A DNA stretch of 64,000 bases. Origin: an uncultured Spirochaetota bacterium. Lineage in GTDB: Bacteria > Spirochaetota > Spirochaetia > JAFGXN01. Below, piece by piece: positions 15,191 through 61,778 of this stretch (position 1 is its first letter; each line of letters opens with the position of its first letter). The translations under genes were made by a program, and so were the position numbers. The notes under the pieces are model-generated. The model worked only from the letters and a program-made list of their open reading frames with translations. It was not told the DNA's origin and ran no database searches. The DNA lies in assembly GCA_944388995.1 (NCBI GenBank), contig CALXKN010000001.1, positions 248,001 to 312,000 on the forward strand, written 5' to 3'.

Positions 15191-15266
15191 AAACTTCTCC
15201 TTTTGCATTGTACATCAAATCGGTTTTTTTCGCAACGGAGAAGCTCGGCTTCAAAAGAAAAACGAT

Positions 15267-17979: not shown

Positions 17980-18013
17980 AAGCCGAAATCATTCTTATTT
18001 GGAGGACTTTGAG

Positions 18014-19843
18014 ATGAGTGTAAAATACCTGAACAAAGCTTTAACAAACAACAAAAAATTGCTCGCATGGGTTGATGAATGGGCTTCCATTTGCGAACCG
18101 GAAGGCGTTTATTGGTGCGATGGATCCGCCGAAGAGTACGACCGACTGGCGAATGAAATGGTGGAAAGCGGTTTGGCAACCCGTCTGAGCGAAAAAAAGC
18201 GGCCGCACAGTCTGCTTTTCCGCTCCGACGTCTCCGACGTAGCGCGCGTTGAAGCGAGAACTTACATCGCTTCCGAAAAACAGGAAGACGCAGGTCCGAC
18301 AAACAACTGGATCGATCCGAAAGAACTGAAAAAAACGATGCTGGATCTTTACAAAGGCTGTATGCACGGCCGCATCATGTATGTTATTCCTTATTCGATG
18401 GGACCGCTCGGTTCAAAAATCGCTAAAATCGGCATCGAATTGACTGATTCGGCTTACGTCGTCATCAATATGCATGTAATGACACGCGTCGGCACCCGTG
18501 TTTTGGAAATTTTGGGCGATAACGGCGAATTCGTTCCGTGTATGCACTCTGTCGGAAAACCGTTGGCTCCGGGTGAAAGCGACGGCGGCGTTTGGCCGTG
18601 CGCTCCGATTGAGAAAAAGTATATTGCGCATTTTCCCGAAACCAGAGAAATTTGGTCTTACGGTTCCGGTTACGGCGGAAACGCGCTGCTCGGTAAAAAA
18701 TGTCTGGCTCTGCGGATTGCTTCCGTTCAGGCTCGTGATGAAGGCTGGTTGGCTGAGCACATGCTGATTTTGAAACTGACGAATCCGAAAGGCGAAGTCA
18801 AATACGTCACCGGCGCTTTCCCGTCGGCGTGCGGAAAAACCAACCTGGCGATGCTGATTCCGACCATCCCCGGCTGGAAAGTCGAAACTATCGGCGATGA
18901 CATTGCCTGGATGAAATTCGGAAAAGACGGACGTCTGTACGCCATCAACCCGGAAGCCGGTTTCTTCGGCGTTGCTCCGGGAACATCGATGAGCTCCAAC
19001 CCGAACGCAATGCACTCCATCGAAAAAGACACCATTTTCACCAATGTGGCGCTGACAGAAGACGGCGATGTCTGGTGGGAAGGAATGGAAACCGATCCGG
19101 GTGAAAAACTGATCGACTGGAAGGGCAATGTCTGGGTCAAAGATTCCGGTGAAAAAGCCGCTCATCCGAACGCCCGCTTCACGGCTAAAGCTTCCAATTG
19201 TCCGGCCATTGCCGACGAATGGGAAGATCCCAACGGCGTTCCCATTTCAGCCTTCCTTTTCGGCGGCCGCCGTCCGTCAACAGTGCCCCTCGTCCATGAA
19301 GCGACAAGCTGGAACCACGGTGTTTTCATGGCTTCCATTATCGGATCGGAAATCACCGCCGCCGCGTTGGATCTGAAAGCCGGAACAATCCGCCGCGATC
19401 CGTTTGCAATGCTGCCTTTCTGCGGATACAATATGGGTGATTACTTCAAACACTGGGTCAATCTGGGCGCCAAAGCCGACGCTTCCAAACTTCCGAAGAT
19501 TTTCTACGTCAACTGGTTCCGCAAAACTCCGGAAGGAAAATGGCTGTGGCCCGGATACGGCGATAACAGCCGCGTTTTGAAATGGATCTTCGATCGCTGT
19601 GATAACGCTATCGAAGCGCGGACGACTGCCATCGGTTATATGCCGAACCCCGAAGACATCGATATTTCCGGTATGAAAGACACAACTTTGGACGACATGA
19701 AACAATTGTTGGACGTCGACGTCGACGGCTGGAAAAAAGAAGTCGAAGGCATCAAAGAGCACTACAAGAAATTCGGCGACAAGCTTCCCAAAGAACTGTC
19801 GGCTGAACTGGCAGCGTTGGAAGAGCGCCTGAATAAGGCATAA
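18014..19843 (+). CDS. pckG: Phosphoenolpyruvate carboxykinase (GTP)
   Basis: 609 aa, the GTP-dependent family. Interconverts oxaloacetate plus GTP with PEP, CO2 and GDP. Landmarks: [10 protein letters not shown] and [13 protein letters not shown] (substrate site), [15 protein letters not shown], the kinase P-loop FPSACGKTN with the reactive Cys, metal-binding [23 protein letters not shown], and [14 protein letters not shown]. In anaerobes the enzyme often runs towards oxaloacetate, feeding succinate formation (known of the family, not shown here). Start ATG 18014 lies 8 nt after GGAGGA; an in-frame TTG at 17999 is rejected. A strong terminator follows. Confidence 0.97.
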
Positions 19844-19860
19844 GCATTAAACGCGTACCG

Positions 19861-19887
19861 AAGCCCTCCCATCAAGGAGGGCTTTTT
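19861..19887 (+). terminator. Rho-independent terminator of pckG
   Basis: GCCCTCC-CATCAA-GGAGGGC followed by TTTTT, 17 bp after the pckG stop. Confidence 0.9.
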
Positions 19888-19891
19888 ACAT

Positions 19892-20079
19892 TAAAAAGAA
19901 CCTGCCGCATAAAGGCGCGGCAGGCAAATAAAAAGGAGAAACGGCAACGAATCTTTCCGGAACCGGGACAGCCGACAGGGGGTTCGGCTTTAGCTAACGC
20001 TGTCGGAAGCGTTAATACGGAGAACGAGCTGCCGATCGCGTTATTACGGAACTGAAAGATTCAAACTCTTTAATAGAGA
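19892..20079 (-). ncRNA. Candidate small regulatory RNA with its own promoter and terminator
   Basis: No ORF is present, but the minus strand has a near-consensus promoter (TTGACA-17-TATAAA, 20114-20086) followed ~190 nt later by a GC-rich hairpin CCTGCCGC-GCCTTTAT-GCGGCAGG and TTCTTTTT (19924-19892). The RNA would have a closing helix GAATCTTTC/GAAAGATTC, internal hairpins AACGCT/AGCGTT and AGCCGA/TCGGCT, and a single-stranded pyrimidine tract TTTCTCCTTTTTAT just before the terminator. That tract is complementary to Shine-Dalgarno sequences, as in many trans-acting small RNAs. Size and helix also recall 6S RNA, but I cannot draw its single long hairpin with central bubble. It is not tmRNA or SRP RNA by any motif I can see. 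Confidence 0.6.
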
Positions 20080-20085
20080 TAACTA

Positions 20086-20114
20086 TTTATATTAGATTAA
20101 ACTAAATTTGTCAA
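20086..20114 (-). promoter_or_regulatory. Near-consensus promoter of the candidate small RNA
   Basis: Minus-strand TTGACA (20114-20109), 17-bp AT-rich spacer, TATAAA (20091-20086), followed by no coding sequence. The preceding aminotransferase gene ends at 20175, about 60 bp upstream. Confidence 0.7.
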
Positions 20115-20174: not shown

Positions 20175-21461
20175 CTAAAGCGATTCGGCTGCCTTAAAGA
20201 TTTTCGCGTAAAGCTCTTCAATTCCGTCCAAGTCAACGGCACTGAAAGCAACCCGCAAATATTTATCTTTCACGGAAATCGTTCCGATAGCAAATTCCTT
20301 CAGCAATTTTTGCCTCAGTTTTTCAGCATTTCCGTCGACTTCAAAACACATAAAGTAACCGGAATTAAACGGCAACGCTTTTAATCGGGTTCCTTTGTAC
20401 GCCTCGATTGATTCTTTGACTTTGCGGTAACGAGCTTCAAGAATTTCATCGTAACTTTTGCGGTCCGACTCGTATTCACCGTCTTTCAACGCTGCAATAA
20501 GAATCGATTGTGCTGTCTTCGAGCAGTTAGACACGGAGGCGCGGATACTTCCGGCCGTCTTCATTTCCAACGCTTTCAGGTGATCTTCATTCAGCCCTTT
20601 TGACGCATAAGTCACAAATCCGATTCGAAAACCCCAAACAAAGTGTTCTTTTGTCGCTCCGTCAATTTTGATTGCCATCACATTTTCATGCAAATCGGCA
20701 AAAAGCGAAAACAGAGACTCGGAATAAACATCTTCTTCGTAAAAAAGTCCGAAATAAGCGTCATCAATGATAAAATTCATCTTGTATCCGCTGCAAGCCA
20801 AATCGAGTATGCGGTTTTTCATATCTTCCGCCTCTTTTTTCAAAAGAGTGTAACCGGTCGGATTGTTCGGAAAATTTAAAATCACTGTCACTCTTTTATC
20901 TGAAGCGTTTTCGACAATACAGCGGCAAAATGCATCAATATTGAATTTTCCATCCGGCGTATAAAACGGAAAATGCGCCAATTCGGCATTTCTCATTCCG
21001 TCGACAATCATGTCGTAGTTTTCCCAGTAAAGATCACTGCAAACAACCTTTTCTCCCTCGCCGATAAAAAGCGAAGCAGCCTGAGAAATCCCTCCGGTCA
21101 ACCCGGGAACGACCACAGGAAGAGAAATGAGCGCTTTTCCGAGAGTCGGATTTTTCCGATAAATTTCCGATTTCCACAGCGTGCGCAGCTCCGCTTCACC
21201 GTAAGAGTTGGCATAAGAGACAATTTGTGCTTCAGATAATTCGGTAAACTGTTTTCGGATAAAAGGCACCATAATCGGTTTGCGGTTGTGGACAGCCATT
21301 CCGGTTGTAGCGTTGTACAATTTAGCGTCTTTTCCCGCCTGCGCCGACTGTTCGACGATTCCGTAAACAGGAAAGTACATCCGCCGTCCGTAATCTGAAA
21401 GAAAAACATCCGCAATTGTATTTTTCAAAGTCTGATTCAGTTCGATTGCCAATGAGTCCAT
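20175..21461 (-). CDS. PLP-dependent aminotransferase, class I/II
   Basis: 428 aa. Fold-type I features: a glycine-rich LTGGISQAASLF segment (cofactor phosphate region), NFPNNPTGYTL, FIIDDAYFGLF with the Asp that contacts the pyridine nitrogen, the lysine loop IKIDGATKEHFVWGFRIGF (Schiff-base Lys in ATKE), and the C-terminal substrate Arg in KYLRVAFSAV. The sequence differs from standard AspC/AlaT enzymes, so the amino-acid substrate is not assigned. CGGAG precedes the ATG. It is a single gene, with the small RNA promoter immediately downstream. Confidence 0.88.
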   Translation of the reverse strand: MDSLAIELNQTLKNTIADVFLSDYGRRMYFPVYGIVEQSAQAGKDAKLYNATTGMAVHNRKPIMVPFIRKQFTELSEAQIVSYANSYGEAELRTLWKSEIYRKNPTLGKALISLPVVVPGLTGGISQAASLFIGEGEKVVCSDLYWENYDMIVDGMRNAELAHFPFYTPDGKFNIDAFCRCIVENASDKRVTVILNFPNNPTGYTLLKKEAEDMKNRILDLACSGYKMNFIIDDAYFGLFYEEDVYSESLFSLFADLHENVMAIKIDGATKEHFVWGFRIGFVTYASKGLNEDHLKALEMKTAGSIRASVSNCSKTAQSILIAALKDGEYESDRKSYDEILEARYRKVKESIEAYKGTRLKALPFNSGYFMCFEVDGNAEKLRQKLLKEFAIGTISVKDKYLRVAFSAVDLDGIEELYAKIFKAAESL

Positions 21462-23290: not shown

Positions 23291-24935
23291 ATTCAATCTC
23301 CCATATCTGCAAATCCAAAGCAAGTTTTAAAATTTCGTTGTAATCAAAAAGCGCATTTTCCAAACGGGTGGAACCGACGGCAACGATGTACGGTCCGAAC
23401 GAAAAACTCAATTCATTTTTATCATCCGCCTCCAAAAACCACCCCGGCGCTCCGTTGACGGACTTCTCTTCACTGATGTTCCAATACCAACTGGCAACAT
23501 CTTCCCTATGCGATTTCATAAACAATCCGTGCGTTTCTCGGGCATTTAAATCGTAATCAAGGTTGAAAAACGAAACGGATGTCAGCACGTTCCGACAATC
23601 GAAAACGATTGCCGAACTCCAATGACCGACAATCCGGCGCGACCACAACACGTTTCCTCTCTCTTCAGCGTAAGACTGACCAACGCGCGACAATTCAAAC
23701 GCAAGGAAGCGGCGGCCGCTGTCTCCGGTTTTCGGCAGAATGAAGAGCGTTTCCCGGATTTCGGGATAAATAAAACGGTCGCTATCATACCACGAGCGGG
23801 AGATGAAATCTTCCCACTCTTCATCAGTAAACGGATGGGCATTCAGGAAAATCACATGCTTCCGGTCGCCCGAAACGCCGGCCAGCGTGTCGGAATCCGT
23901 CCGGTAAAAATTCAAAAGACCGTACTTGCCTTTGTACGGAAGCCTTGCTTCGGAGTCTTCCTCAAAATAAAACGTCTGCTCCGTCGGATTTTCACCGGAA
24001 AAAATCATCACGGTTACGGTTTTTCCGAAAAGCGCGTTCTCATAGACGGCAAGCGAACAGACGTCCCGCCGGCCGATCTCTTCCGTTATTTCACTGAGCT
24101 GCCGAAAAATCTCGTTGTCGAAGTCGTAAACCAGGCCGGCGATGTTGTTTATATCGAAAAGACAGAGCGAAGAGAGAGCGTAATCGGCGTGCAGCGGAAA
24201 ATAGCTCAGCTGCTCGATTAAAACCGGCGGAAGCTCCTCCGGAATCCGGTAATTTTCCCTGAACCGGACAATCTCTTCTTCATCCGTCAGTTTATCAAAT
24301 TTTTCGGCCGCCCCGCGGAATTCATCCAAGTGGCTAACCTCTTTCGCTTCGACGCCTTTTTCCGTCAACTGCCGACGGTACGCTTCCGCCTCCTCTTCCG
24401 AAGAAAAGGCCCCTGAATGCAAATCGAAACTCATCAGCGTTTCATCATCGTACTTTTTCACGATGTACGAATCGATTCCCTGCGCTTCAAGACGGGATTC
24501 GGCATTTTCAGCACGGGATTCTTCTTTATATCTTTCAAGAAAAACCGAATAAGGAAGTTCTTCCGTCAGCGGAAAATCGTTTTTTTGCACAGCTACCGCG
24601 CTTTTGAATTCGTAAAAAACGGGGTCTTTAAAAACTACTGTACGCGGTTCGCCGGCGCCCGCTTTTTCAATCACTCTGTCAGCTTTGAGTTTCCGGATTT
24701 CGGCAGCAGCGGCTTTCTCAGAAGCGAACTCCTGCGAAACGACAAAAAGGTAGACCGAACCGGGATAACGCTCTTCCTGAATGATTTCGGCTTCGACCCC
24801 TTCGTCCGCCAGCGTTGCCGCCAACGCTTCGGCAAAATTTTCGTTCAGAAAGGTCCCGAAACAAATTCGTGTCTGGGCAAACCCGGAAAGAGAACAAAAA
24901 AGAACAACCGCCGCAAATATTTTTCCGAATGGCAT
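23277..24935 (-). CDS. Secreted SPOR-like repeat protein of unknown function
   Basis: 552 aa. A signal peptide (MPFGKIFAAVVLFCSLSGFAQ) is followed by two SPOR-like ~75-residue units: TRICFGTFLNENFAEALAATL and YSVFLERYKEESRAENAESRL ... SGAFSSEEEAEAYRRQL. SPOR domains bind denuded peptidoglycan. The C-terminal ~330 residues are unassigned beta-rich sequence with many aromatic residues. TGAGGT 7 nt before ATG 24935 fixes the start. It is the first gene of a run with purU and queG, functionally unrelated. Two other envelope proteins of similar style lie immediately beyond. Confidence 0.75.
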   Translation of the reverse strand: MPFGKIFAAVVLFCSLSGFAQTRICFGTFLNENFAEALAATLADEGVEAEIIQEERYPGSVYLFVVSQEFASEKAAAAEIRKLKADRVIEKAGAGEPRTVVFKDPVFYEFKSAVAVQKNDFPLTEELPYSVFLERYKEESRAENAESRLEAQGIDSYIVKKYDDETLMSFDLHSGAFSSEEEAEAYRRQLTEKGVEAKEVSHLDEFRGAAEKFDKLTDEEEIVRFRENYRIPEELPPVLIEQLSYFPLHADYALSSLCLFDINNIAGLVYDFDNEIFRQLSEITEEIGRRDVCSLAVYENALFGKTVTVMIFSGENPTEQTFYFEEDSEARLPYKGKYGLLNFYRTDSDTLAGVSGDRKHVIFLNAHPFTDEEWEDFISRSWYDSDRFIYPEIRETLFILPKTGDSGRRFLAFELSRVGQSYAEERGNVLWSRRIVGHWSSAIVFDCRNVLTSVSFFNLDYDLNARETHGLFMKSHREDVASWYWNISEEKSVNGAPGWFLEADDKNELSFSFGPYIVAVGSTRLENALFDYNEILKLALDLQIWEIEYENQ

Positions 24936-61704: not shown

Positions 61705-61778
61705 GGAGGCATAGCTCAGTCGGTCAGAGCGCCTGTTTCACATACAGGAGGTCATAGGTTCAAGTCCTATTGTCTCTA
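61705..61778 (+). tRNA. tRNA-Val (anticodon CAC)
   Basis: 74 nt. Acceptor GGAGGCA/TGTCTCT with two G-T pairs, D-stem GCTC/GAGC, anticodon stem CCTGT/ACAGG with loop TTCACAT (anticodon CAC), T-arm ATAGG-TTCAAGT-CCTAT, discriminator A. CCA is not encoded. The last three bases (CTA) are the complement of the TAG stop codon of the MarR gene on the other strand. No terminator is visible downstream. Confidence 0.93.

Follow-up and report, generated by a model that had tools for sequence, protein, structure and literature searches.

A putative Hfq-independent small RNA with an anti-Shine-Dalgarno tract downstream of a spirochaete aminotransferase gene

The locus and its predicted RNA

The 64-kb stretch of genomic DNA analysed here (the window) comes from an uncultured spirochaete and carries, at 20114-19890 on the minus strand, a putative small RNA (sRNA) gene composed of a promoter, a transcript of ~190 nt and a terminator. 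Upstream of it and in the same direction lies a class I/II aminotransferase gene (20175..21461, minus strand; Pfam PF00155), which ends 60 nt before the promoter of the RNA. From the other side, a gene for GTP-dependent PEP carboxykinase (17999..19843, plus strand, start probably 18014; Pfam PF00821/PF17297) converges on the locus and has its own terminator in the sequence at about 19862-19888. The terminator scan revealed no terminator belonging to the aminotransferase gene before the RNA promoter, so the aminotransferase mRNA probably reads through to the terminator of the RNA, and the two transcripts may share it.

The promoter is of the sigma-70/A type (20086..20114, minus strand), with TTGACA at 20114-20109, a 17-nt spacer and TATAAA at 20091-20086. 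The pattern TTGACA-(16-18 nt)-(at least five of the six bases of TATAAT) occurs at 10 sites in the window versus 0.275 per dinucleotide-preserving shuffle (~36-fold enrichment), suggesting that most sites of this type in the window are likely to be real promoters. On the same strand, an intrinsic terminator (19890..19925, minus strand) consists of a G+C-rich stem of 10 bp (19925-19900; GCCUGCCGCG/UGCGGCAGGU) and a U tract that extends to 19890, the letters directly 3' of the hairpin being UUCUUUUUAAU. When a strict terminator was defined as a stem of at least nine pairs, seven of them G-C, with a T-rich tail, a 2-kb scan found one, versus none in 60 shuffles. From the promoter and terminator geometry, the transcript (19892..20080, minus strand) would start near A20080 and end in the U tract. 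It contains no plausible open reading frame, since its start codons open only peptides without support. An earlier note on this DNA had described a non-coding stretch with a near-consensus TTGACA-17-TATAAA promoter and a strong terminator ~190 nt apart on the same strand; all of these elements are present, and the strand, which the note had not named, is the minus strand.

The predicted fold is built on a 9-bp closing helix, in which 20062-20054 (5' arm GAAUCUUUC, 20054..20062, minus strand) pairs with 19957-19949 (3' arm GAAAGAUUC, 19949..19957, minus strand) with pair probabilities of 0.98-0.99. The helix opens into a multiloop with two hairpins, both of which appear in the minimum free energy (MFE) and centroid structures: UAACGC..GCGUUA with an inner stem (19995..20043, minus strand) and AGCCGA..UCGGCU (19970..19989, minus strand). 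The closing helix of 9 bp and the internal hairpins drawn in the earlier note are thus recovered. The whole transcript has an MFE of -60.2 kcal/mol and a folding z of -4.5, and the z of the core alone (114 nt, enclosed by the two arms of the closing helix) is -3.6, but about 4% of the same-length segments of the window reach z <= -3, so the significance of the fold alone is modest. Folding does not tell the strands apart (z -3.7 for the opposite one), and the strand assignment therefore rests on the promoter and the terminator. Taken together, the promoter, the terminator, the predicted fold and the lack of an open reading frame give good support to a stand-alone non-coding RNA gene, whose RNA is likely to be transcribed.

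We compared the RNA with known families. The covariance search against Rfam, 6S RNA included, which the earlier note had proposed as a check, assigned it to no family: the only match in the window at the curated threshold was a tRNA (61705-61778), and the 6S model (RF00013) did not match the RNA at the gathering threshold or at E up to 10. Weak Rfam hits at E up to 10 (ncr1175, Arrc14, Phe_leader, Hrs13, IR_84 and others) fell far under the curated scores, involved mainly terminator hairpins and were rejected. RNase P RNA (282.7 bits), tmRNA (138.6 bits) and SRP RNA (61.5 bits) were all found above their cut-offs elsewhere in the genome, and a diverged copy of any of the three was rejected on that ground. 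A search for the Hfq family (PF17209) in this 98.1%-complete genome found nothing at E up to 10, which argues against an Hfq-dependent sRNA; the same search detected the family in 7 of 14 control genomes.

The open tract and matching ribosome-binding sites

Between the closing helix and the terminator lies a tract of 23 nt, GUUGCCGUUUCUCCUUUUUAUUU (19926..19948, minus strand), that is complementary to Shine-Dalgarno sequences and predicted to be single-stranded, with P(unpaired) of 0.81-1.0 at every base but the first (0.37). The shorter tract singled out in the earlier note (UUUCUCCUUUUUAU, 19941-19928) falls inside this stretch, and its description there as an unpaired sequence before the terminator, complementary to ribosome-binding sites, agrees with our prediction. 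Shine-Dalgarno sites pair with any tract that contains CUCCUU. The target statistics were computed on a larger set than the window: 440 kb, or 23% of the genome, in which a crude gene caller supplied 362 genes whose ribosome-binding sites were compared with the tract.

The two targets that had been named for the tract do not stand out by these statistics. The pheS ribosome-binding site (AAAAGGAGAA, 15195..15204, minus strand) does pair with it over the ten consecutive bases reported, and the inositol-phosphatase-family gene (Inositol_P), credited with seven, has a match of 8 nt (AGGAGAAA, its final A opening the ATG). At least seven consecutive bases are paired with the tract in 15 of the 52 window genes, however, so both pairings are no more than a Shine-Dalgarno complement gives. 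Among the 362 genes, a match of 10 nt is found at pheS and five others and a longer one at five more, and pheS ranks 210 of 362 by accessibility-corrected energy. We did not retain either gene as a target.

The longest match among the 362 genes, 16 nt, is to the ribosome-binding site of a LamB/YcsF gene (pxpA-like, 5-oxoprolinase subunit A; C4:25998), and the second longest, 15 nt, lies before the gene for a surface protein of 1810 aa with bacterial Ig-like domains (C1:228466). Only three exact copies of the 15-mer complement of the tract, AAATAAAAAGGAGAA, are found in the 1.93-Mb genome: one in the RNA gene and two that stand a few nucleotides before the ATGs of the LamB/YcsF and Ig-like genes. 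With flanking U.G and G-C pairs, the pairing read from the sequence reaches about 18 bp at both sites. Markov models predict 0.03-0.06 occurrences of the 15-mer, and a model of AAGGAG-type sites with independent positions predicts 0.01-0.03 such sites, but these small probabilities are overstated because the matches overlap a Lys-TAA stop and the positions are not independent, and the test was picked once the matches had been seen. One of 300 flank-shuffled tracts retaining the CUCCUU core reached a longest match of 16 nt among the 362 genes.

The overlap is the same at both sites: the match covers the last Lys codon and the TAA stop of the upstream gene (AAA TAA AAAGGAG), so ordinary operon layout accounts for part of both matches. 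A TAA is found at that position in 4 of 50 AAGGAG sites. When each ribosome-binding site was used as the query instead of the tract, 4% reached a longest match of 16, these being the LamB/YcsF and Ig-like genes matching each other. The accessibility-corrected energies of the tract were no better than those of flank-shuffled, core-retaining tracts (best -16.0 versus a null median of -17.0), and neither a 12-mer search (108 versus 115) nor a 15-mer search with two mismatches (39 versus 33) gave a clear enrichment over the reversed pattern. The LamB/YcsF and Ig-like sites would be the strongest candidate targets, as leads rather than findings.

The LamB/YcsF gene stands in an apparent operon (L093:3680-9534, contig C4) with parts of D-glutamate cyclase and the 5-oxoprolinase-type subunits CT_C_D, LamB_YcsF and CT_A_B. 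By sequence, these are followed by genes for a class IV aminotransferase-like protein and an alanine-racemase-like protein. The operon possibly serves a D-glutamate/5-oxoproline pathway. At the Ig-like locus (L091:3034-13079, contig C1), co-directional genes for very large proteins of 1810 aa and 1532 aa adjoin each other; the 1810-aa protein has, besides its bacterial Ig-like domains, a lipoprotein-like N-terminus.

Interpretation and alternatives

From the promoter, the terminator, the predicted fold, the predicted open tract and the complementarity, all read in the sequence, we propose with a probability of roughly 0.5 that the RNA is an orphan, Hfq-independent, trans-acting sRNA that lies in the 3' flank of the aminotransferase gene and blocks ribosome-binding sites. 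An RNA of ~190 nt would be transcribed from its own promoter, and its folded body (the closing helix and two hairpins), together with the terminator, would hold the 23-nt pyrimidine-rich tract open. The tract would then pair in trans, without Hfq, with the ribosome-binding sites of a few mRNAs, and the pairing would block translation initiation, the candidate mRNAs being those of LamB/YcsF, in the D-glutamate-cyclase/oxoprolinase operon, and of the large Ig-like gene. The earlier note had seen in this locus the layout of a trans-acting repressor; we keep the RNA gene and its anti-Shine-Dalgarno layout, and drop pheS and Inositol_P as its targets. Probably the RNA is an ordinary regulatory small RNA. 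A more ambitious version, in which a lineage-specific Hfq-independent sRNA controls translation inside operons, including that of D-glutamate cyclase/5-oxoprolinase, by forming ~18 bp with coupled genes in a region that spans the stop codon and the ribosome-binding site, appears quite doubtful.

A real, transcribed and structured RNA might instead do other work, such as binding or sequestering a protein or acting in a 6S-like manner on another protein, with the pyrimidine tract being incidental. The structured core is larger than the tract and folds significantly, and the interaction energies of the tract do not exceed those with shuffled flanks, both of which would fit such a role; the tract, however, is long and open and has two matches of 15-16 nt at ribosome-binding sites, and no protein partner can be named, so we regard this explanation as rather unlikely. 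Another candidate identity is a 6S RNA, perhaps as a second copy; the general resemblance consists of a length near 190 nt and a closing helix. Some bacteria, such as B. subtilis, do have two 6S RNAs. The alternative, which the earlier note had also raised, is nevertheless highly improbable, since the covariance model gave no match even at E up to 10, the MFE and sampled structures have a closing stem that opens through a multiloop into two hairpins instead of a rod-like fold around a large central bubble, and the genome encodes a separate 6S RNA above the cut-off (C4:89330-89501, minus strand; 52.8 bits, cut-off 46.4).

The locus might also contain no sRNA at all: the aminotransferase mRNA would simply end here with its 3' UTR and terminator, and the promoter-like match would be weak or silent. 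The proximity of the upstream gene on the same strand, with no other terminator seen in the 60 nt before the promoter, is what this explanation would predict, and A-rich DNA yields promoter-like strings. Against it, shuffled sequence hardly ever yields a promoter of this class (0.275 per 64 kb, versus the 10 observed), and 190 structured nucleotides behind a near-consensus promoter exceed what a terminator needs; we consider it unlikely.

Comparison with known small RNAs and distribution

Several known systems resemble the proposed sRNA in part, and we claim membership in no named family. The CiaR-dependent csRNAs of streptococci are trans-encoded regulators believed to pair at ribosome-binding sites, and the blocking of these sites is given as the general mode of such trans-encoded RNAs (PMC8186281). 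They too are trans-encoded and have their own promoter and terminator, and the pairing at ribosome-binding sites is what we propose for the spirochaete RNA. The bacteria are unrelated, we claim no CiaR box or multiple copies, and target repression is reported for the csRNAs and predicted here. RsaE/RoxS are Hfq-independent, C/U-rich anti-Shine-Dalgarno sRNAs; the present RNA likewise has a pyrimidine-rich tract, predicted to be unpaired, with complementarity to Shine-Dalgarno sites, in a genome in which the Hfq search found no match, but it differs in size, fold and tract sequence and has no Rfam match to such families. sRNAs located in 3' UTRs with an internal promoter are also a known kind. 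The RNA follows closely on a co-directional gene whose terminator it probably shares, as these do, whereas its promoter follows the stop codon and is hence intergenic, and there is no sign of processing from the mRNA.

The spirochaete sRNA papers that we found are largely on Borrelia. A comparative survey that looked for structured RNAs in 26 bacterial genomes, spirochaetes among them, used a method that by its own account does not suit sRNAs well (PMC8632094); that this RNA is missing from published lists therefore does not count against it. If the proposed function is correct, a free-standing sRNA without Hfq in a little-studied order of uncultured spirochaetes would extend this largely Borrelia-based record, with a weight limited to that of a single orphan RNA with a putative function, of a kind, the anti-Shine-Dalgarno sRNAs, that is already familiar.

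We also searched for homologues of the RNA. None was detected outside the genus in 395 genomes of the class scanned with a covariance model, which gave chance-level hits only; the model was built from a single sequence (effective sequence number 0.79), so that diverged homologues could be missed. Weak hits appeared in 19 further genomes (best E 7.7e-4), and those inspected aligned mostly to coding sequence, leaving out the core, or to unrelated intergenic DNA; the hits that recurred within one genus (g61) did not represent one homologous locus. Of two DNA matches, L004 proved to be coding sequence and L005 an ordinary ribosome-binding site. No copies were found in the phage, plasmid and viral collections, the viral contigs being scanned with one exact 20-mer only.

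The order is represented by three genomes in the collection. In the only other member of the family (G002), the covariance model and DNA comparison both failed to detect the RNA, and the two neighbour genes, for the aminotransferase (53% identity) and the PEP carboxykinase (64%), are on different contigs. The only homologue is an identical sequence of 223 nt in a metagenome-assembled genome of the same genus (G001; 'uncultured Spirochaetes bacterium isolate BRZ_M__bin37'). Over 9.3 kb around the RNA, the two genomes are 97.8% identical and many 200-bp bins have 0-3 differences, so the identity of the RNA says little about conservation or covariation. The differences between them cluster in patches, as compared at window positions 19584-19633 and 23400-24800, and in the patch inside the PEP carboxykinase gene the identity falls to 76% over 50 bp. 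This patchiness looks as if it had arisen by recombination.
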